From Syncephalis fuscata (lineage: Eukaryota; Zoopagomycota; Zoopagomycetes; Zoopagales; Piptocephalidaceae): a DNA stretch of 64,000 nt. The translations under genes were made by a program, and so were the position numbers. The number at the start of each line of letters is the position of its first letter. Positions within the stretch are counted from its first letter, which is position 1. This document shows positions 1 through 55,160 of the stretch, piece after piece. The notes beneath the pieces were generated by a model. That model saw only the letters and a program-made list of their open reading frames with translations. It searched no databases and was not told the origin of the DNA. The stretch lies in the NCBI GenBank assembly GCA_025786725.1, contig JAHLTZ010000058.1, positions 18,985-82,984 on the forward strand. The letters run 5' to 3'.

Positions 1-1558
1 TTATTATTATTGATACTGCAGTAAACATTATGCAAATTGCACGTTTAATAGTGCTGATTTGTCAGATTAATTATGGCTTTTTTTCACTGTTTCTCAATAT
101 TATTTTAATAAATTTATATATATTACGCTGTCATGGGTTGCTATTGCAGCATTCTGTGGATTTGGTAAGTTAATATAAAGCTAAATAATCTAATTTATAC
201 TAAAACATATTCAATAGTAATATGGTTTGGGATCATATGCTACAAACTTAGAAAGCATCCAAATGGCCGCCATAAATTCATAAAGGTAGATTATTTGATA
301 AAGTTGGTGCGTTAATCATAATACTTATATATTGAATTAAATGACATGCCTTACTGTATTGGCGCTTTTCACGTATATTACAAATACGATTAAGTGCCAA
401 TTATTGACGTAAATAATTAATTGGCCTATATTTTTAAATGTAGATAGCAAATAGTAGTTGTCTTTACTTTATTTAGTCATCAGTATCTCTGCATTTAGTA
501 CAAATGGAATGCAGCCAATTCATTTACCAATACTGCGCAACGATATTTTCTATAGTTTCATAATTTCAAATATTGTTAATGCTGTGCAACAATAGTTTAG
601 TCGATAATACTGTTACTGGTGTTACAAAAATTTAGCATTGGAATCTAGCGAACACCAGCATTTTTTGCTTTATTTGTATTACGCACACTGAAACTTGGTG
701 TTCTATTACCCACTTCAGTTGATAACATTAGCGCATTATGGCAAACTTAATATTAGTCACTTTTAATAGGATGTATGTTACAATATTTGATTTATATACT
801 TGTACAATAATAGTTTTATATCCAAACAACTGTCTATGTACTAGAAGCTAGCTAAACAGTCATGTCGCGATAGAAAAACTTGAATAATTTATTTAAATAA
901 GTTAGTTGTTTATTTCTATAGTTATACAGTTTACTCATTAGTCTGTATTACAATCAAACAGAAAGAATAAATTAATTTGGTCGCACATACAATCTTGAAA
1001 CAAACCACGTTCTAAACAATAATTGTATTTGGATTAAAATAACAGCTATGGTCGTGAATAAAAACTATTTCATATTCATTAAGACTAGCAGTCTCTATCA
1101 TTAACTTAGTGCAGTGTTACTTATGCAAATAGTAATGGCGTAAACATCAAAGTGCTAATAGTAATATGGTATTGATATTATTAGCAAATGAATTAGCGTA
1201 GTGAAATAATAATGACCATACAGTTAGCTTATTTAAGTTAAATGCTTGTGTTGCTTATTATTATTAGGATTGTACTATCAATGCCCAATGTTTGGGACTT
1301 AACTAATAGCAGTATTTTTATTGGTATATTACTATCCATACCATATTTAATCCAGCTATTGTTACATTTGTGTAAGATAAAGACACAGTGAGTGGTATTA
1401 ATTGTGTATTTTAGCAATATATAAACCAATAATTATGCCATTAAGCTAAATAGCAATATTTTTATTTAATAAGCTTATTTGATTCTCTGTTACGTATTGC
1501 CAACAATTTAAACCGCAACAAATTACGTCAAATTTCTGTGAAAATAACATCAGAAATC
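1..1558. other. AT-rich non-coding left edge
   Basis: No coding region with splice structure or recognisable protein is visible on either strand. The stretch is AT-rich with short TA-rich runs. It should hold the promoter of the LPMO gene that begins at 1559. Confidence 0.5.
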
Positions 1559-2116
1559 ATGATAGCTTGGGCCAGTATTATTTTTGTTGCTATTCTCGGT
1601 CTTGGTACAATTGAAAGTGCACTGGCCCACATGAGCCTAGCGACACCAATTCCGCGTGGCAGCCTCAAAAACACCGGATATCCAGTAGACTACAATCTTC
1701 AAGCTCCACTTAATAATGTGGCATTTCCTGGTGATTTTCCCTGCCGTCACAGACAACGAGGTCCAATTACGGCAATCTACAACGCTGGCCAGTCCATTTA
1801 TGTTGATTTTGATATAAACAATCCACATAAAGGTGGTCATTGCCAATTTGGTCTTTCATACGACAACGAAAATTTTGTGGTGCTAAGGACGATGTTCCGC
1901 AATTGCTTTGATGTATTCAACTACAACATTCCGATTCCTGCAGGTGCCAGGGGTGGCAATGCCGTATTCAGCTGGAGCTGGATCAATGCTGATGGAAATC
2001 GCGAATTTTACATGAACTGTGCCGATATTCATATCAATGGGCCGTTGGACGGCAGCGTAACTGGCCAGAGAGTAATGGTTGCCAACATGCCAAACACGCC
2101 ATTCATTGACCAATAA
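1559..2116 (+). CDS. Secreted AA11-like lytic polysaccharide monooxygenase, early stop
   Basis: Copper-dependent oxygenase expected to cleave chitin-like polysaccharide outside the cell. The start is the ATG at 1559; an upstream in-frame GTG at 1538 is not a plausible fungal start. Residues 1-23 are a signal peptide ending ALA, so the mature protein begins with His24, the N-terminal half of the copper histidine brace. The second brace His is His90 in NPHKGGHC. A DFPC cysteine and the block WSWINADGNREFYMNC, typical of AA11 enzymes, follow. TAA at 2114-2116 ends the frame after PFIDQ, yet the same frame continues open to TAA at 2225-2227 and includes a further cysteine (KQCPV). That continuation looks coding, so this is a nonsense allele, a readthrough product or a base error. 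AA11 assignment is by motif only. Confidence 0.75.
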   Translation: MIAWASIIFVAILGLGTIESALAHMSLATPIPRGSLKNTGYPVDYNLQAPLNNVAFPGDFPCRHRQRGPITAIYNAGQSIYVDFDINNPHKGGHCQFGLSYDNENFVVLRTMFRNCFDVFNYNIPIPAGARGGNAVFSWSWINADGNREFYMNCADIHINGPLDGSVTGQRVMVANMPNTPFIDQ

Positions 2117-11757: not shown

Positions 11758-13006
11758 ATGAAGCTTTCTATGCCGTTATCTGCATTATAGTTATAATATT
11801 TGTAACAACGGCCGGCATAGTAGATGCTAAGCCAACTCTGATCCGTCGTAGTATGTTGCAACTGCAATAGTCAGCTATACATTTGACTGAATATTATTTG
11901 TATCAACAAACTAACATTAATAGGTTGTAAGTTTATTGTAAATTAATCAATATTATGCTGACTATATATTATTTGTCGTATTTATTCAATAACTTGTACT
12001 GGCAGTTCGTAAGCGGCAGTGTATGTTAATTAGCTATACTCTGATTATACCGTTATGTAATACATGTGCTTAATAACATAACGTTGATAGCTGGTAAGTT
12101 ACATTGCGCATCAATTGGCTATATACTAAACCTATTTCATACATTGTGTGCTGCTGAATAACTTGTATCAATAGGCCGTAAGTGGCATTTTATATTAAGT
12201 AACGATATGCTAAGCATATGGCATACAATTTATGCGTTTAATAACTTATATTAATAGTTGGTAAGTGAGATTTTATGCTAATTAATTATGCACTAAGCAT
12301 ATGCCATACATTGCGTACACTTAATAAACCGTATACATAGGTCGTAAGTAAAGCTTTATATTGATTAGCCACGCACTAAATACACTTTATAAACCATACG
12401 TGTGTGTCCTGTACTAATAGAGAGTAAGTAAATTTATATGTTGACTAGTCATTTAGTAAATATACTTTATGCATCCTATGTGTTTATTAACATATATTAA
12501 TAGAGGGTAAGTAAATATTTATACCCGCCGATTATAAACTGAATATATCGCATGAACTGGTATATTTATTAACTGGTATTAATAGATGGTAAGTGGAATC
12601 ATATAATAATTAACTATACACTAAGTGTATATCACGCACCATATATAACCGATAATATATATTACTAGATAGTAGGTGTAGCTGTATATCAAGTATCATG
12701 GTCTAAACGTGTTTCCCATAAACTAAACATATTTAATAATCTGTATAAATAGCTGGTGAGTGGCATTATATACCAGCTAATTATGCACTGAGTATATAAA
12801 ATTATCTGCGTATGTTGTATGGCTTTTATTGATAGACCGTAAGTAATATTGTATATTATTAGCCATGTACTAAATATATGCCAATTGCCGCATATGCTTA
12901 ATAACTTTTATTGATAGCATGTAAGTATAGCTATATACCATTGAATTATACACTAATTATAATGCCTGTATTTTATAAATTTATAAATATACAATAATTA
13001 GTTTAA
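11758..13006 (+). pseudogene. Micro-exon secreted-peptide locus 1: signal exon (1-nt deletion) plus 13 triplet exons
   Basis: Exon 1 (11758-11850) aligns with exon 1 of locus 2 but lacks one base after TCTAT, so the signal peptide is out of frame and reaches TAG early. It still ends CGTCGTA then GTATGT, a donor after Arg-Arg plus one base. Thirteen units then place a three-base exon between AG and GT at 11924 GTT, 12006 TTC, 12091 CTG, 12175 GCC, 12258 TTG, 12341 GTC, 12421 AGA, 12504 AGG, 12586 ATG, 12669 ATA, 12753 CTG, 12836 ACC and 12918 CAT. Donors are GTAAGT except GTAAGC, GTAGGT and GTGAGT (12009, 12672, 12756). Reading in phase 1 gives no stop; an acceptor at 13000-13001 then gives one codon and TAA at 13004-13006. 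The locus is a recent pseudogene, or the deletion is a base error. Confidence 0.6.
11924..12992 (+). repeat. 13-unit tandem array, period ~83 bp
   Basis: Each unit runs donor, AT-rich body containing TATGCACTAAATATATG-like and ATTGTGTGTGTTTAATAACTTG-like blocks, acceptor, triplet. Bodies are diverged while splice sites are retained. The spacing of successive triplets is 82-85 bp with few exceptions. The array is homologous to the 21-unit array that starts at 14561. Confidence 0.9.
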
Positions 13007-14394
13007 AACCCAATACATTGGCATTTTTAGTGTAACTGATTGCTAGATTCAATATGATTTAAATATGTATCTAGCAAAAAGCAAGACCATTTGACAACTA
13101 TCGTTTATTCTATTTATACACCAAGTTTCAACTAATATCCGGCTTATTCAAATTTCAATAAATAATTTCATCACACTACTAACAAGACTGTGTTCAACTG
13201 TGTTTATTCAATTTTAAAATTTTATAGCTATTCTGTATGCTAAAGTAATAAATCTTATGAACATAGTCATATTTTTAAAGCTGTAATGATACATCGTCAT
13301 TTATTTGCAGTCTTGTGAAAATGTATATGGACTTTATTAGCACCAAATCTCAATTTTATATCCTTGTCCCAGCAAAATTCGCCTTGATTTCTTAACTATT
13401 TTGGTGTGTAAACTTATAATAAACCATATGGACTATGGTAAACTAAACCATTAAGCCATTTGTGCATCAAGATTGTTACTGCTTGGTGTAAACCAATATG
13501 TGCTACTGCAGTTTAGCACTATGCAGATAATTGTTAGACAAAGAAATAAAAACGATAAACTAGTGTTATTGCCTATTAATAGAAAGTTTCATGTCTTCAT
13601 GGTAAGGCAATAATAAGCATTGAAACGAATAATATGCCACTAAGGGCAACGAGGAAAGAAAGAATAGAGAAGAAAAGTTTTTTTAACCACCACGTTACCT
13701 CAATAGGGGCAAAGGCTTGAAGTTGAATTAATTGCGAGATGAAACGACTTTAAGATAAAAGAAGGTTTTAAAAAAGCCAGCAAGCTAGACTTGCCGGTTC
13801 CCTTTGATAGGAAGGCTTCCATCCCAATAATAATATACTTTTAAATAGTTAAAACCGAATTTGAATCAAGAGATAAGCATATATGTCTAGCAGAAGAATA
13901 AAATGGGTATTTTACAGATGCGCAATCTAGAATGCTAATCTGTCAACATAGGCCTGAGACTTGAAATGAAGAGAGAAGAAGAAATAAAATAAAACGCAAA
14001 AGGAACTTGGATTAAGAGATCGAGGGCTAAGATCTATTAGACCGAGGAACAAAAATAGAAGCAGCATTAGGCCTATGCCTTTCACTACACTATAATAGAT
14101 GCGGTTGGTACAGCAAAGGGCTTATAAAGTCATTGGATATGAAAAGTAAACTTGTGCATGCAATAGGTGAATCTCGCCTTTTGCATAGAACATGAGTTAT
14201 GTCTAGACCATAGCAGACATGTTACAATATTGGTATCTCAGTATAACCATAGATTTAAATAGCCCACGCAGCACACACAACTAACTAGTATTATCATCAT
14301 TACACTCTACTTTCTTCCAATACCCACTACTACTTACTTTATACTAACAAGCTCTATTGGTGCTTCTACTTAGTTTTTTAAAATCAATACCAAC
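12921..14394. other. Spacer between micro-exon loci with shared 3' and 5' flanks
   Basis: The first part (to about 13370) aligns with the 3' flank of locus 2, including GCAAAAAGCAAGACCATTTG against GCAAGAAACAAGATCATTTG. The part from 13640 to 14140 is more purine-rich and has no counterpart I can see. From 14240 the sequence is the 5' flank shared with locus 1, with TTTAAATAGCCCA near 14258 as a possible TATA-like element. No coding region is visible. Confidence 0.45.
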
Positions 14395-16284
14395 ATGAAG
14401 CTTTCTATTGCCGTCGTCTGCACCATTGTCATGGCTTTTGTGGCCACCACATCCGTGGTGGATGCCAGTCCAGCCCTAGCTCGTCGTGGTACGTTGTAAC
14501 TACAATAACTAGTTATACATTTAATTAAATATTATTTTAATACCAAATTAACGCTAATAGATCGTAAGTTGGATTGTATACCAGCCATCTATGTACTAAT
14601 TGTATGCTATTTGCTGTGTGTGTTTAACAACTTGTGTTAATAGCTCGTAAGTAATATTGTATATTTACTAATCATGTACTAAATATATATATTATTTACT
14701 GTGTATATTTGATAACTTGTACCAACAGGATGTAAGTGATATTATATATAACCAGCTATGCGCTAAACATATGTTTTATATTGTGTATGCGCAATAACTT
14801 GCATTAATAGGGAGTAAGTGTCGGTTATTTTGATCGACTATTTGCTAAATATATATTATGTATTATGCGTGTTTAATGACTTGTATTACTAGAGTGTAAG
14901 TGTCATTGTATATTCAGCAAATATGTACTAAATATATATTATGTACCGTGTGTATTTGATAACTTGTATTAATAGTTCGTAAGTGTTATTATATATTTAT
15001 CAGCTATGCACTAAATATATGTCATACACCATGTATATTTAATGGCTTGCATTAATAGCTAGTAAGTATTATTGTATATTATTTATTTATACACTAAACG
15101 TCTTTTATGCATTGTATTTATTTAATAATTTAACACTAATAGCTGGTAAGTGTTATTTTATATTTATTAATTGTACACTAAGCATATTTTATATATTGTG
15201 CATGTTTGGTAACTTGTATTAACAGTTTGTAAGTGGCGTTTTATACTTATCAGCTATGTACTAAACATATATTGTACATCATACGTGATAACCTTTGATA
15301 ATAGACAGTAAGTGCTATTGTATATTCATTAACTATACACTAAACATCCTTCATACATTGTATTTGTTTAATAATTTATAATGATAGATAGTAAGTAATA
15401 CTGTATATTTATCGGATGTGCGCTAAACATATAGTATATACTGTGTGCGTTTAACAATGTACATTAACAGGTCGTAAGTCTCATTGTATATTTATCAACT
15501 GTACATTAAAAATATGCAATATATTATATTCGTTTGACAATTTATACTAATAGATGGTAAGTGACATTTTATACTCATCAATTATGTAATAAATATATGC
15601 TATACGCTATGTGTGTTTAATGATATACATTAACAGGTCGTAAGTGTTATTTAATACTCATCAGTTATGCACTAAATATATGTCGCACACTGTGTGTTCA
15701 ATAACCTATGATAATAGATAGTAAGTGACATTGCATATTCATTAATTACATACTAAACTTATTTCGTTTATTTTGTGTACTTAATGACTTGTATTAATAG
15801 CTGGTAAACTTCATCTTATATTAACGAGCTATACACTAACTATATATTATATATTGTGTGCGCATAATAACTTGCATTAATAGGAAGTAAGTGTCATTCT
15901 ATATCAACCGACTATGTACTAAACATATTTTATATGCTGTGTGTTCGATTACCTGTATCAATAGGAGGTATTTGAATTGCATATCAAGTAGCTATGTACT
16001 AAACATATGTCATGCACTGCTTTTGTTTGATAACATGTATTAATAGCTGGTAAGTAACAATTTATATTTATTAATTATGCGCTAAACATATGGTATGCAC
16101 TGTTTATATCTAATGATTTGTATTATTAGTCAGTGAGTAGCATTGCATATTAATCAACCATGCACTAAAAGATGTTTACACTGCGTGTTTAATAATTTAC
16201 ACTGATAGTTTGTAAGTATGATTGTCTAGTGTTGGTTTATACACTAATTATATGATATGTCACATTCATTTATAAACATAGAAT
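14395..16284 (+). CDS. Micro-exon secreted-peptide locus 2: signal exon plus 21 triplet exons
   Basis: Exon 1 (14395-14488, 94 nt) codes a signal peptide starting MKLSIAVV, then SPALARR, and ends one base into the next codon at donor GTACGT. Twenty-one three-base exons follow at 14561 ATC, 14644 CTC, 14729 GAT, 14811 GGA, 14893 AGT, 14976 TTC, 15059 CTA, 15143 CTG, 15226 TTT, 15305 ACA, 15388 ATA, 15471 GTC, 15554 ATG, 15637 GTC, 15718 ATA, 15801 CTG, 15894 GAA, 15965 GAG, 16047 CTG, 16130 TCA and 16209 TTT. Each lies between an intron end (TTAATAG, TAACAG or similar, with a TAATAAC-like branch site ~13 nt upstream) and a donor, GTAAGT in 18 of 21. In phase 1 the joined codons have no stop and begin D-P-R-W-K-F. 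An acceptor at 16280-16281 gives TAA at once; an alternative at 16303-16304 would add 29 codons ending at 16393. Arg-Arg fits Kex2 processing just before the array. Seen: the pattern. Inferred: splicing and product. Confidence 0.65.
14561..16260 (+). repeat. 21-unit tandem array, period ~82 bp
   Basis: The units have the same architecture as the first array. Triplet-to-triplet distances are mostly 82-84 bp, with one pair at 93 and 71 bp that compensate. Donors deviate from GTAAGT at 15804 (GTAAAC), 15968 (GTATTT) and 16133 (GTGAGT). The array is not a CRISPR: units are contiguous, diverged and lack conserved repeat/unique spacer alternation. Confidence 0.9.
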
Positions 16285-47534: not shown

Positions 47535-49606
47535 TTATGTCATCCAAGGTTGAATAATCTCACATCCTTTAGGCATGTCATATGCTTCGATCGATTTAAC
47601 CAAAGGAGCAGCATATAAACCTTGCGCACTCAATCCAAGACCGCGCTTAGCAAATGCGGCCCAGATTTCGCAAGCATTATTTCCAAATGTCAATGCCTTT
47701 TCTGCTTGTAAAATAGCATTTCTTGCCGCAATAAAAGTTGGCGAACACAAAGTCAATTTCATGCCAGTAATAATCACCTTAAGGGCCAGCGTATTTCCTT
47801 TTTGCTTTAGTAAATCTTCATGCTGACCATATTTATAGTTTTTCCAGTCTATAAAGCCATGCTTTCGAACTAAATTCCAATAAATTTGATAGAGAATATT
47901 TCCCCAGATAGAGCCACCTGCATGTTCTTGTTGCCATTTGCTTTCGAGTAAATTACCATAACGAGCTGGATTATCTTGTTTGCTTAAGCTATAAGGATAT
48001 GGACGGCCACTATATATGTTGTCTAATTTATTGACATCCATCCTATCGGTTGGTTGCGATTTCTCTGTCATTTCAACCCAAAGAGCAACGAAATCGCTCC
48101 AGCCTTCTCCCATGGCTTTACCTTCCATGTTTGTTAGACAATTTGAGTTGTGACTACCACCGATTAATCGATTTGAAGTTCCATGGGTGACTTCATGAAC
48201 CATTAACTGTGATTGGAATCCCGAATCTAGATTTGGATAGCTTCCAGTCCACATGCCAGTCTTCAGTATCCCACTTTGACCATCGGGTGGTGTAGCAAAG
48301 AATGCATTATTAATAGATTCTGGATAGCGTAAATAGGCTTGAACGGGATCATTTCCATAACCGCCTTATCGAAATTAAGTTTTTGGAAATTTCCGGCTAT
48401 TTCATTAAAACCATATTCACGAAATATATCATGCATCATGTTAAATATATAAAAAGCGTTTGTTGCCGCTGCTTTAGCGCTTATTGATGCGGGGCCATAG
48501 CCATTATAATTGTATATATCATTCTTGCTTTTGACATACCCAGTAACACCATCATTTTCTATTTGTATGTTATTGCCCCACAATGCATTATATTTACGAG
48601 TGCCAATATGCCAATCATTTTTTGGATCAAACAGTTTTTGTGGATCTGTAAGAACTGTCTGTCCAGATTCATATATACGAATCTTTCCAAGTGGCACGAC
48701 ATTATATTGATAGCGACTCGTCCAGTTTGCCAAAGCTACCACGCGTGGCCTATCAACTGCTACATGAGCGTTAATATAGTCGATTTTAAGCTTTATGGTA
48801 AATTCCCAAGCCAGGGTCAGTTGCTTGTTTTTGAATGAATAAACGCGCGCTTGACTTGAATTGGATCGAGTGCAAATGGCACATTCTCTATAATATATTT
48901 GACATCATTTTCATTACTTGTTTTTTGGGGAGTAATTTTAACGGCATTAATATTAGGCAACTTTTGCTTAATGTGATTCGACAGTTCCTGAAGTGCTGCT
49001 CTCATACTGGCAATCATTTTTGGATCATCTGGAGACCAAACAGCCGGTTTAGCAACAGCAGGGCCACTATAAAATGAGTGGGCATAATTTATAATTTGTC
49101 CTTTGTCGTCCAAGTGAAATTCCATGTTGCTAGATTGAATTTCAATACCGTGCATGAGCTGTCTTAAATAAATGTGAGATAGCTTAGGAGATGTATCTTG
49201 GTAAATCTTCTTTAAAGCGTAACTTTCTTTTTGAAGGTTGAGATTTTCTTGAGCAAATTTTAAAGCAATAGATAGTGGGCTCTGATTTGAGCTATATTTT
49301 GCAGTAAGCTTTTCGAAATCAGCATCCAAAAGTGTTGTTTTATAGATATTTCTGGACTTGGATTTACATCAGGAATTGGCGTATAGCCATTGTTTAAACC
49401 TGTAGTTTGAGTTTTGGTTTAGATTGGATTTCAGGCTTTGCTGTGACTTGATTGACGTTATTTGTTGATATCTTTTGGTTCGACATAGCATTGGCAGTGG
49501 TGTCTATTTGTTGTTGCACTGTCTGAAGTTGAGCTGCCATCCTTGCTGTGGCAAAACTAGCAGCACTTGCAAGTACCAAAGCTGCTAATTTTAGACGAAA
49601 CTTCAT
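47535..49606 (-). pseudogene. Fungalysin (M36) metallopeptidase, several frame breaks
   Basis: Secreted zinc endopeptidase of the fungalysin family, made as a prepro-protein. The ATG at 49604-49606 starts a signal peptide (MKFRLKLAALVLASAASF). A propeptide, read in several frames between 48.8 and 49.5 kb, and the catalytic domain follow. The zinc motif HEVTHGTSNRLIGG has the HExxH histidines, and GEGWSDF carries the third zinc ligand Glu. The C-terminal ~150 residues are normal for M36. The frame breaks at least four times: twice between 49330 and 49430, once near 48825 and once near 48365. Two of these sit at A or G runs where one missing base explains the break. It is either a decaying gene or a badly polished one: it lies inside an inverted repeat, where base correction is hard. 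Confidence 0.8.
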
Positions 49607-51264: not shown

Positions 51265-51665
51265 TTAAAAGTGTGATTCCAGTGTACTAGTGTGATATAA
51301 TTAATAAAGTGTAAGCTAAAAATGATTACAATAGCTTATTTAATGCTGTATTATTATGTACAACTTTACGTAAAATAAAGTAAACTGCGTGATATTTTGC
51401 ACAAGCATGCGTATAATATATAAACAGCTACTGGTAAAGTGTGGTGATGTTGTATTGTGTGATGATGTAATGCTGTACTAATACGCTAATAAATGTGTAA
51501 TAATATCAGTTTTTACAAATTATGCCTTATATAACTAAAAGATATCAAAACAATTGTTGGATTTGACTTCTCCATGCTTAGCTGAACAGATTGGTATAAT
51601 TTATGGAGCAATGATTTTGCAAAAATAATTATTCAAAAATGCAATCTACGTATTTCTAATTTACT
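51265..51665 (+). repeat. Left arm of ~400 bp inverted repeat
   Basis: The segment from AAAAGTGTGATTCC to the block TGCAATCTACGTATT matches the reverse complement of 52170-52572 closely in its outer ~330 bp and more loosely inside. No protein is encoded. Confidence 0.8.
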
Positions 51666-51679
51666 TTAAAAAGTGCAAA

Positions 51680-51985
51680 TATTAGTACATACAACTTACG
51701 TAAATAAAGCAAATCGTCTGCTATTTTGCACGAGTATGCGTATAACATATATACAACTATTGGCAAAGTATACCGTGATTGTATTGTGTTCAGATGCATT
51801 AATTATGATAATACGCTAATAAATACGTAAAAATAGCAGCTTTTTACAGACTATGGCTTATATAACTAAAATACAGCAAAACAACTGTCGGATTCGAGTT
51901 CTCCATGCTTAGTTGTAAAGAATTATATAAGAAATAAAACAATGCTTTTTGCAAAAATTATTACCAAAAATGCAATTTACGTATT
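51680..51985 (+). repeat. Diverged direct copy of the 51.3-51.6 kb repeat
   Basis: It shares ordered blocks with the left arm: ACAACTTACGTAAATAAAG, TATTTTGCACGAG-ATGCGTATAA, ATACGCTAATAAAT, ATGGCTTATATAACTAAAA and TTCTCCATGCTTAG. A further partial start is seen near 52000. The cluster is therefore two to three direct copies plus one inverted copy. Confidence 0.7.
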
Positions 51986-53182: not shown

Positions 53183-53251
53183 TTGGCGAGCACAATAGAG
53201 GACCAACGTTCTCCTACGCTTTAAGACTATTACTAGTACAGCGTTTCCTTA

Positions 53252-53800
53252 TTATCAATATTATTTATTTAATATTGGTATACTACTTTCTTTATTATCA
53301 ATATTACTGTTTGATATTGGTATATTACTTTCTTTATTATCAATATTGTGTATTTAATATTGGTATAGTACTTCCTCATTATCAATATTATTTATTTAAT
53401 ATTGGTATATTACTTCTTTACTATCAATATTATTGTTTGATATTGGTACATTTACTTTCTTTATTATCAATATTACTGTTTGATATTGGTATATTACTTT
53501 CCTCATTATCAATATTATTTATTTAATATTGGTACATTACTTCTTTACTATCAATATTATTGTTTGATATTGGTACATTTACATTTCATTATCAATATTA
53601 TTTATTTAATATTGGTATATTACTTCCTTACTATCAATATTATTGTTTGATATTGGTACATTTACTTTCTTTATTATCAATATTGTGTATTTAATATTGG
53701 TATACTACTTTCTTTACTATCAATATTATTGTTGATATTGGTACATTTACTACATTTCATTATCAATATTACTGTTGGATATTGGTATATTATTCATTTA
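53252..53800 (+). repeat. 13-unit palindromic tandem repeat in the retroelement leader
   Basis: Thirteen ~42 bp units each contain ATCAATATTA...TAATATTGGTA or a close variant, so each can fold as a short hairpin with a loop such as TTTATT or TTGT. Units alternate between a few sub-types. The open frame across them is an artefact of the repeat. They lie between the 5' LTR and the gag start. Confidence 0.9.
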
Positions 53801-53852: not shown

Positions 53853-55160
53853 ATGGACGATTCAACCAACGTGTGGTCTACACAAGAAGCATCCCACCCT
53901 ACACCACAATGGCAATCGGTTTCCGAGAGCAATGGATGGTCGGATCAGTCGATACGCGAGACCATGAGTCTCCTCTTATCATTATCTCCACAGGAAAGAC
54001 TTCGCCTAGCCGACATCGCGCGCAACAATCATGACCAGATGCCAACCGTTGAGCAATCACCAACTGTGTCAGAGGCAACTCCAGGCAATAATGACCATCC
54101 GGAACAATGGCAAACAAACGCAGATAACCCCCGGCTCACTCACGAACCGATTAATGGAATCCCTGACTTGTCACAGGCTACGGGTGCTCACCCGGTAGTT
54201 ACTACGCAAGACTCAGGTAGAATCCTCGAATCGTTCGATGGAGTAAACCCATGGGCTAATATGCAGTCTAGCCAAATGTCCTGGTTTGCAAACCAACGTT
54301 ACGATAAGACAATCGTTCGGTTTGCAGGATCATTATTGACTGAAGACGCCATTGCATGGCTGGAACAGTACGACGAATGTGCAGAAAGGAATGGTTGGTC
54401 GCACGAAGCCAGGTTAAATACGGTCGGTAGTTATCTGGATGGACAAGCTAAGCTCTGGTGGAAAGCTATCAAACCAAAAGTCACGCATTGGCGCAAAGGT
54501 CGTGGACTACGCGACTCCGGACCTGCAACGTTTTATAATGAATTTCTCAAGGCTTATTTTACAGCAGATATCGTTGCTATTTGGCACCGATGCTTAATGG
54601 AAGGCAAACAACAACCCAACGAGAGTGTAGATATATTCGCCTTACGACTTCAAGATATAGCTAGAAAAGTTCGATATAGCCGTGAAGTAACAGATGAGAC
54701 TATTAGTGACATTTTTATGCGAGGACTGTCACAAGATCTGGAAGTGTCATTACGCGACTACGAAATGATGCAACCACTCGAATCGATTACGCTAGAAAGT
54801 CGAATCAGGACAGCGTCACGACTAGAAGCAAATCGTTGTATACCAACCAGATCGACTATTCCTGTATACCAGAACCAAGCAAATAGTCAACGAACTGATA
54901 ATACACCACGCATGCGACCTAACTATAACTGGCAACAACTAGTCAAACATGAACCAGCAACTGTACAATCGACCGACACCAAGATTAGTCGACTGGAAGA
55001 ACAAATTAGTAAAATGACTCAACAAATAGGTGAACTTACTACTACGTTGGACAAAAAACCATTAGTCGCACGTGACTACTCACCCAGAAAGTGTCGTACT
55101 TGTGGCAGTGCCGATCCACATAACTGGGCCGAATGTAAGCAGAGGAAGGATTTTCGGTAA
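53853..55160 (+). CDS. Retroelement Gag (nucleocapsid) protein
   Basis: A structural protein of 435 residues that would assemble virus-like particles around element RNA. The ATG at 53853 follows the hairpin array. Residues ~150-300 form a retrotransposon gag domain (KTIVRFAGSLLTEDAIAWLEQ..LDGQAKLWWKAI). A coiled segment (KISRLEEQISKMTQQIGEL) leads to a zinc knuckle CRTCGSADPHNWAEC, which has five rather than four residues between the second Cys and the His. The frame closes at TAA 55158-55160 and the next frame continues at -1 relative to it, across GGATTTTCGG. Confidence 0.85.
   Translation: MDDSTNVWSTQEASHPTPQWQSVSESNGWSDQSIRETMSLLLSLSPQERLRLADIARNNHDQMPTVEQSPTVSEATPGNNDHPEQWQTNADNPRLTHEPINGIPDLSQATGAHPVVTTQDSGRILESFDGVNPWANMQSSQMSWFANQRYDKTIVRFAGSLLTEDAIAWLEQYDECAERNGWSHEARLNTVGSYLDGQAKLWWKAIKPKVTHWRKGRGLRDSGPATFYNEFLKAYFTADIVAIWHRCLMEGKQQPNESVDIFALRLQDIARKVRYSREVTDETISDIFMRGLSQDLEVSLRDYEMMQPLESITLESRIRTASRLEANRCIPTRSTIPVYQNQANSQRTDNTPRMRPNYNWQQLVKHEPATVQSTDTKISRLEEQISKMTQQIGELTTTLDKKPLVARDYSPRKCRTCGSADPHNWAECKQRKDFR

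Follow-up and report, generated by a model that had tools for sequence, protein, structure and literature searches.

Syncephalis is a genus of mycoparasites. In a 64,000-nucleotide (nt) stretch of the Syncephalis fuscata genome (assembly GCA_025786725.1, contig JAHLTZ010000058.1, positions 18,985 to 82,984; hereafter the window), a gene at 14395-16284 consists of a leader exon followed by 21 units of the form AG-NNN-GT, as an earlier note had described and as we confirmed. This observation belongs to a large gene family and not to a single gene. Judging from the genomic sequence, the family very probably encodes secreted proteins by means of a leader exon, 13–47 phase 1 exons that are mostly 3 nt long, and a short terminal exon bearing the stop codon. 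The proposal that each codon is an exon of its own, read in phase 1, was upheld by three tests on relatives of the window gene: an order-dependent coding signal, the existence of intronless paralogues, and the homology of one joined array (L080/L081) to contiguous open reading frames (ORFs). A length of 3 nt proved to be the rule across the family, although some exons of relatives measure 6 nt.

Extent of the family and its coding signal

The leader MKLSIAVVCTIVVAL..., which looks like a signal peptide by eye and ends in RR, is common to the array genes. A search of the genome for this leader gave 336 candidates; the 150 that were scored all reached E 3.6e-8 or better, and the window locus was recovered as C254:33379-33474 (E 1.1e-9). 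The 30 best leader loci were fetched, among which 22 carried arrays and eight were intronless, with several near-identical copies. Near-identical duplicates of array genes, inverted or on the same strand, were seen at C1 475-478 kb (+) and 531-534 kb (-), at C1 575 kb (-) and 610 kb (+), and at C2 226 and 245 kb. A donor followed the leader in 39 of 47 leader places examined, and 14 arrays were left after removal of near-duplicates and of arrays with fewer than five exons. With only two lengths allowed, these arrays comprised 362 exons, 347 of 3 nt and 15 of 6 nt (13–47 per array, several arrays being cut by locus ends), and the micro-exon run accounted for the whole mature part but did not extend to the leader. 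When exon length was left free up to 12 nt, the models had contained 262 exons of 3 nt, 16 of 6 nt and three of 7 nt; these and other early automatic models passed over weak-site units, and later gene models took their place.

The array introns were short (60–85 nt in 346 of 348) and those of an array were copies of one repeat family, with the best match lying in the same gene for 135 of 348, while positional homology of introns between genes was weak (0.392 vs. 0.374). A repeat starting like TTTATTTTGAAGAGCTTGTGAGCCCCCGCTGCGC (a variant in L045) was found inserted in array introns of L078 (an intron of 501 nt), L031, L038 and L045.

Genome-wide, exon lengths of 2, 3, 4 and 6 nt were counted. 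The pattern TAATAG-3nt-GTAAGT occurred at 2,716 sites compared with five for the reversed control, and the class AATATTAG-6nt-GTAAGT, whose acceptor form is that seen with 6-nt exons, at 58 sites (control 0). Spacings of 4 nt (14; control 20) and 2 nt (26; control 36) between TAATAG and GTAAGT did not exceed the control genome-wide. The lengths far above control, 3 and 6 nt but not 2 and 4 nt, are those of symmetric exons, as in micro-exon genes. Two consecutive units (ATAGNNNGTAAGT, 60–80 bases, AGNNNGTAAG) were found 2,712 times in the genome and never in the reversed control. Further, the motif of the intron 3' end, TTTAATATTAATAG, was directly followed by NNNGTA in 760 of 788 copies. At the fetched loci, 290 of 291 donors with a scored acceptor within 40 nt sat exactly 3 nt from it, as counted with a site model trained on 3-nt units and with 114 more donors having no scored acceptor within that distance; within the array spans of eight loci, 137 of 141 GTAAGT lay 3 nt 3' of AG. 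Among 284 distinct units selected with a strict splice-site pattern, the triplet positions carried 0.04–0.23 bits and, of 50 flanking positions displayed, 48 exceeded 0.23, in line with the earlier note's remark that triplets vary while their flanks are held.

Since phase 1 codons span two exons about 80 bases apart, avoidance of stops across junctions and amino-acid bias can only come from the joined message. In the predicted frame, the 14 arrays (that at 11758 in the window being counted in its shifted frame) contained 55 Cys and one stop in 377 codons. Shuffling triplets within genes 10,000 times gave on average 28.2 Cys (standard deviation (sd) 3.8, maximum 45) and 16.6 stops (sd 3.1, minimum 4), and no shuffle was as extreme as the predicted frame on either Cys or stops. 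Cross-gene shuffles gave 26.9 Cys and 16.7 stops. The other frames of these arrays held one Cys and two stops (frame 0) and 14 Cys and 37 stops (frame +2). An earlier set of 12 arrays had 39 Cys vs. 19.6 when shuffled, and one stop vs. 13.0. Of the 12 arrays with 17 exons or more, eight showed the spacing C-x2,3-C-x3,4-C, compared with a mean of 0.44 and a maximum of 4 in 5,000 shuffles, and so did all six intronless peptides tried. When read after RR to the last triplet, the products of L071, L072, L075, L076, L036 and L077 were GSYEECKACMVVCKDRGELSKEQCQGKCYNQC, GTVAECKTCLSHCTRGGDTKKFCSIQCSHNYFPAQC, ANSKCTDACKAACKTQGASAPADKRAEWIKNCISGVCKC, AGGSEECRVCLENCKKNGWSAFWCHTWSTCSRACA, DAIEDCRRGRAACFKKCQSTWRDSASLEYRSCSMDCASYWRICSPFPL and GISAKCQACRDGCSKKHKWNLWSRYKCRRDYCNDRDFCQG, respectively, with six cysteines each; L074, which is cut by the locus end, had eight.

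A chance repeat or non-coding satellite was rejected on the order dependence of this signal. The signal also bears on the view that the array is removed as one long intron, or retained, with only the leader peptide made and the triplets never translated. Exon 1 of the window gene joined to its terminal exon would indeed be in frame and meet TAA at once. However, stops are depleted and cysteines enriched across junctions that exist only after stepwise splicing, joined arrays are homologous to contiguous ORFs, and all 16 codon changes between members of disjoint close pairs replace the amino acid (both detailed below), and we regard an untranslated array as extremely improbable.

Intronless paralogues and close array copies

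The intronless paralogues have the leader, promoter and 3' end of the array genes and encode a peptide of the same cysteine-rich kind, for example GGKSPQCTSCMATKCKKGMNASICNDICKKECSA and LDAKACQDCSNGCALSSSGNPLAAWLCSRNCKKFCE. In these loci CGTCGT is followed by codons, and these by sequence that matches the terminal exon of the arrays; L062 resumes exactly at the predicted terminal-exon junction (TGTG, then AATAATCGATGG). As in retroposed copies, all introns are thus lost at exact splice junctions (the exact junction being read in L062). A new promoter or location, also typical of such copies, was not found, as the intronless copies keep the upstream DNA of the array genes: it is common to six intronless and eight array copies over up to about 1.3 kb, which points to conversion of a resident gene by complementary DNA (cDNA) and not to insertion elsewhere.

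The L080/L081 array (contig C239; 23 exons, 3' end outside the fetched DNA) joins to AKDPAKCNQCMSQCYGNYPYPSQA. When it was aligned to the annotated protein P0169, 15 of 23 residues agreed (KDPAK-C..C...C..NYPYPS.A), with a score of 87, compared with a mean of 25.5 and a maximum of 51 for 1,000 shuffles of its triplets. A whole-genome search with its 24 residues returned two matches, both of them contiguous ORFs (64% identity, E 8.4e-5), and its spliced DNA aligned to the contiguous gene L079. With regard to similarity to the intronless set, nine of 16 arrays beat at least 95% of their own shuffles. Taken together, the order-dependent coding signal and the homology to contiguous ORFs indicate that the one-codon-per-exon reading holds for the family.

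Public proteins were also compared. With the family profile, 10 proteins reached an E of 0.01 or lower, each of them carrying the species name Syncephalis fuscata. BDF19DRAFT_453770 (P0171) is composed of exon 1, CCA, AAG and ATC, followed by donor read-through; as deduced from the protein, the public annotation already contains two consecutive 3-nt exons in the predicted frame. The public gene models P0174 and P0175 have the same leader before other mature regions, one of them cysteine-free with KR sites, and the leader appears, on sequence grounds, to be a module common to different genes. AlphaFold performed poorly on an intronless member (mean pLDDT 63, pTM 0.29, helices only).

Array introns that are copies of one family, and intronless copies with the same promoter, are also what would be seen if contiguous cysteine-rich genes were ancestral and a mobile introner-like intron had invaded them after every third base in phase 1. 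Such an invasion would nevertheless require some 20–40 independent insertions per gene at exact 3-nt steps and in one phase, and the intron 3' end motif stands before a triplet and a donor in 760/788 copies and rarely alone in other genes. At lag 1, 19 duplicated triplets stood against 15.3, a count reached by 552 of 3,000 shuffles, and at lag 4, 21 stood against 13.4 (67 of 3,000); neighboring triplets are therefore not clearly duplicated beyond chance and give no sign of 3-nt target duplications. Nor do the ends of the introns form inverted repeats, with 3.37 matches out of 12; neither target site duplications nor terminal inverted repeats, both optional signatures of introners, were found in the arrays. 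We consider an ancestral state without introns quite unlikely, and scattered introner invasion was rejected as the main view on the motif context and the lack of duplication or inverted-repeat signatures.

Close copies of array genes were then compared with each other. Triplets differed more than intron interiors in seven of seven close pairs, with Fisher p <0.01 in five (some pairs share a member). Over four disjoint pairs that have no skipped units, with L077/L078 left out, changes amounted to 28/315 in triplets vs. 191/5,431 in intron interiors (Fisher p 2e-5, about 2.5-fold). Pooling L077/L078 as a fifth pair gave 36/362 in triplets, 269/6,739 in interiors (p 1.7e-6), 40/2,389 in the splice core and 2/476 in exon 1. 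The changed codons of the four disjoint pairs were 16 nonsynonymous and none synonymous, against a rough neutral expectation of 0.795 (p 0.025); this count omits L077/L078 and L043/L061, in which units are missing on one side and joined codons are unreliable. Including the unreliable pair L077/L078, 21 of 21 were nonsynonymous (p 0.008). In one unit the acceptor AG is kept in L078 and lost in L077, which would delete one codon in frame, and in 6-nt exons the acceptor is placed 3 nt further upstream.

The triplets might appear fast only through homogenization of the introns by gene conversion, in the absence of diversifying selection. The introns are mutually similar and could convert, and the best match inside the own gene for 135/348 fits this account, which we nonetheless find doubtful: conversion tracts would take the 3-nt exons along, exon 1 is nearly unchanged (2/476 in five pairs), and the codon changes are nonsynonymous throughout (16/16 vs. 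0.795; p 0.025).

Several results weigh against one-codon exons as the family-wide plan. The cysteine spacing is missing from four of the 12 arrays, and L069, one of the 14 arrays, has an in-frame stop and only two Cys although it reaches the terminal exon. In similarity to the intronless set, seven of 16 arrays, including both window arrays, failed to surpass 95% of their shuffles. The window peptide did not rise above its shuffles in that comparison (403 of 1,000 as good), it has no cysteine, and the absence of stops from it does not reach significance by itself. A profile of the array peptides run against ORFs with default composition correction found no intronless copy; when the correction was omitted, intronless copies appeared at E 0.058–1.4, mixed with chance matches. 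P0171 and probably P0173 end via donor read-through, and the annotation thus did not follow the whole array. Lastly, the fast triplet divergence is not significant alone in two of the seven pairs and could result in part from homogenization of introns by gene conversion.

The array gene of the window and its surroundings

Exon 1 of the window gene has 31 codons and one base, translates to MKLSIAVVCTIVMAFVATTSVVDASPALARR plus one base, and is followed by the donor GTACGT; a stretch of 267–280 bp including it aligned at 71–76% to six intronless copies. The acceptors of the 21 triplets are 17 TAG and four CAG, each immediately 5' of its triplet, and the donors are 18 GTAAGT with one each of GTAAAC, GTATTT and GTGAGT. 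Introns between triplets measure 76–82 nt; that after exon 1 has 72 nt and the final one 70. Two ordinary introns of the DGAT2 gene in the window are 62 and 52 nt long, so short introns are normal in this fungus.

Features of the two arrays in the window
Feature	Position	Strand	Remarks
TATA-like element	14254..14265	+	TTTAAATAGCCC, read in the sequence; like AAATAGCCC upstream of other family copies
Exon 1	14395..14488	+	94 nt, phase 1 end; putative signal peptide and propeptide with ARR (dibasic) end
First intron	14489..14560	+	72 nt, GTACGT...TAG
3-nt exon 1 of 21	14561..14563	+	ATC
3-nt exon 2	14644..14646	+	CTC
3-nt exon 3	14729..14731	+	GAT
3-nt exon 4	14811..14813	+	GGA
3-nt exon 5	14893..14895	+	AGT
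3-nt exon 6	14976..14978	+	TTC
3-nt exon 7	15059..15061	+	CTA
3-nt exon 8	15143..15145	+	CTG
3-nt exon 9	15226..15228	+	TTT
3-nt exon 10	15305..15307	+	ACA
3-nt exon 11	15388..15390	+	ATA
3-nt exon 12	15471..15473	+	GTC
3-nt exon 13	15554..15556	+	ATG
3-nt exon 14	15637..15639	+	GTC
3-nt exon 15	15718..15720	+	ATA
3-nt exon 16	15801..15803	+	CTG; donor GTAAAC
3-nt exon 17	15884..15886	+	GAA
3-nt exon 18	15965..15967	+	GAG; donor GTATTT
3-nt exon 19	16047..16049	+	CTG
3-nt exon 20	16130..16132	+	TCA; donor GTGAGT
3-nt exon 21	16209..16211	+	TTT
Last intron	16212..16281	+	70 nt; 3' end TTTATAAACATAG, much like last introns of other family members
Terminal exon start	16282..16284	+	AA finishes stop T^AA
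Leader exon, second array copy	11758..11850	+	93 nt, one base shorter than usual
Second array	11924..12920	+	13 triplets between AG and GT: GTT TTC CTG GCC TTG GTC AGA AGG ATG ATA CTG ACC CAT

Joined in phase 1, the array reads MKLSIAVVCTIVMAFVATTSVVDASPALARR-DPRWKFPTVYNSHGHTGRAVI, the peptide after RR being DPRWKFPTVYNSHGHTGRAVI, of 21 residues and without cysteine. An acceptor just past the array had been said to lead to TAA, and the stop is indeed completed across the last junction by the T of the last triplet and AA at 16282-16283 (acceptor AG at 16280-16281), with a further in-frame TAA after it. The absence of stops from the joined triplets, also claimed earlier, is true but weak evidence alone, as 45% of shufflings of the 21 triplets were stop-free too; the case is carried by the family.

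From its sequence, the window copy looks intact in plan but cysteine-free, and it is not provable alone. It might be a dying member in which leader and splice sites survive while the peptide is no longer selected, a somewhat unlikely account with which the lack of cysteines and the two weak donors agree. The similarity of its introns to those of other genes is likewise low (0.288 vs. 0.395–0.459 in 12 of 13 other arrays, and 0.245 in the neighboring array), and the neighbor at 11758 has a frameshifted leader. On the other hand, the leader of the window copy is intact, GT and AG are kept in 22 of 22 introns, its 21 codons are stop-free and the terminal stop is present; P0174 is also cysteine-free after the same leader. 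As for the neighbor (11758-12920), the missing base in its leader breaks the signal peptide frame, and its 13 triplets were stop-free when read by eye from its own RR.

Elsewhere in the window, a fungalysin (peptidase M36) lies at 47538-48742 (-) in two open stretches, and a Gag-like retrotransposon ORF at 53853-55157 (+) stands beside tandem repeats of 331 and about 42 bp (51359-51985, 53244-53800). An ORF at 1538-2113 (+) has a likely signal peptide and a possible mature start HMSLATPIPRG; it had no Pfam match at 0.001, and this start presumably resembles that of copper-dependent lytic enzymes.

Known systems, proposed mechanism and meaning

Schistosoma micro-exon genes (MEGs) have longer and varied exons of 6–36 nt, and the exons of aphid bicycle genes, which are marked by a CYC motif, are much longer than 3 nt. 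The arrays share with MEGs several consecutive very short coding exons (13–47 of 3 or 6 nt in the 14 arrays). They differ in that 3 nt is the rule, the introns belong to one repeat family and intronless copies exist, and in that the organism is a fungus and not a worm, the comparison being one of architecture and not of homology. Bicycle genes are described, in excerpts of PMC9168663, as fast-evolving putative effectors with many small internal exons, nearly all of one phase. As in the arrays, their exons start at codon position 2, whereas they average about 17 exons per gene and concern a different protein and kingdom (PMC9168663, excerpts). Isolated exons of 1 and 3 nt, in Arabidopsis APC11 and others, indicate that exons below any splice-factor footprint are spliced (PMC4674806, excerpts); those are single events in ordinary genes, while here runs of tens occur in a family. 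Introners or introner-like elements are families of similar short introns within a genome, known in fungi (PMC9860276 and PMC4457414, excerpts). The array introns likewise form a family of similar short introns in one genome; unlike introner-like elements, their end motif sits directly before NNNGTA (760/788) and is not scattered in many unrelated genes. An excerpt of a 2024 Trichoderma paper states that functional microexons were previously undescribed in filamentous fungi (PMC11121469).

The earlier note knew of no tandem array of single-codon exons. In agreement, none was described among the literature matches listed for 3-nt or single-codon exons, micro-exons, Syncephalis and mycoparasites, a scope outside which bioRxiv and most subscription journals lie. 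Phrases for 3-nt or single-codon exons brought up only a mitochondrial-genome match, and the words 'exon' and 'intron' are absent from the main text of two genome papers covering Syncephalis. MEGs and bicycle genes, as micro-exon effector families, embody the same principle, which single-codon arrays take to a new extreme.

In the mechanism that we propose, exon 1 would encode a signal peptide and a propeptide with a dibasic end, the mature peptide would come from consecutive 3-nt (occasionally 6-nt) exons between ordinary-looking GT-AG introns of one repeat family, and the short terminal exon would supply the stop. Because the introns are in phase 1, a mature codon would have its first base at the end of an exon and the other two at the start of the exon that follows, and the DNA would contain unbroken mature codons solely within 6-nt exons. 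Adjacent 3' and 5' sites leave no room for simultaneous occupation when only 3 nt lie between them; splicing would therefore presumably proceed by intron definition, with the spliceosome taking out a single intron at a time. The leader with its dibasic end, together with the rapid change, suggests that a Kex2-kind protease may cut after RR and that the cysteine-rich peptides may act at the contact between mycoparasite and host fungus under diversifying selection. The intronless copies would be arrays stripped of introns in one step via reverse-transcribed mRNA, the reverse transcript of the spliced message converting the resident gene, and would thus be fossils of the fully spliced transcript. 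This direction appears the probable one; the opposite course would take dozens of insertions at exact positions.

More tentatively, single-codon exons may constitute a device for evolving peptides, in which splice-site change, unequal crossover involving the repeated introns, or exon skipping would add or remove one codon without a frameshift and reverse transcription would fix mRNAs as intronless genes. The AG lost in L077 but kept in L078, and the 6-nt exons with their acceptor 3 nt upstream, both seen in the sequence, point in this direction. If this were true, one gene would give a set of in-frame peptides, and the intronless genes would be genomic copies of the spliced message.

These genes represent the micro-exon gene at its limit, with one codon per exon, tens in a row and in many genes; over a 29-Mb genome, the 3-nt exon sites run into thousands. 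Since the exons are too short for splicing signals, the arrays would serve as a natural experiment on pure intron definition and on sequential splicing with sites 3 nt apart, and the intronless copies bear on the mode of intron loss. The findings also suggest that standard annotation misses whole families of secreted genes, and they would tie splice architecture to rapid codon-level change in the secreted peptides of a parasite.

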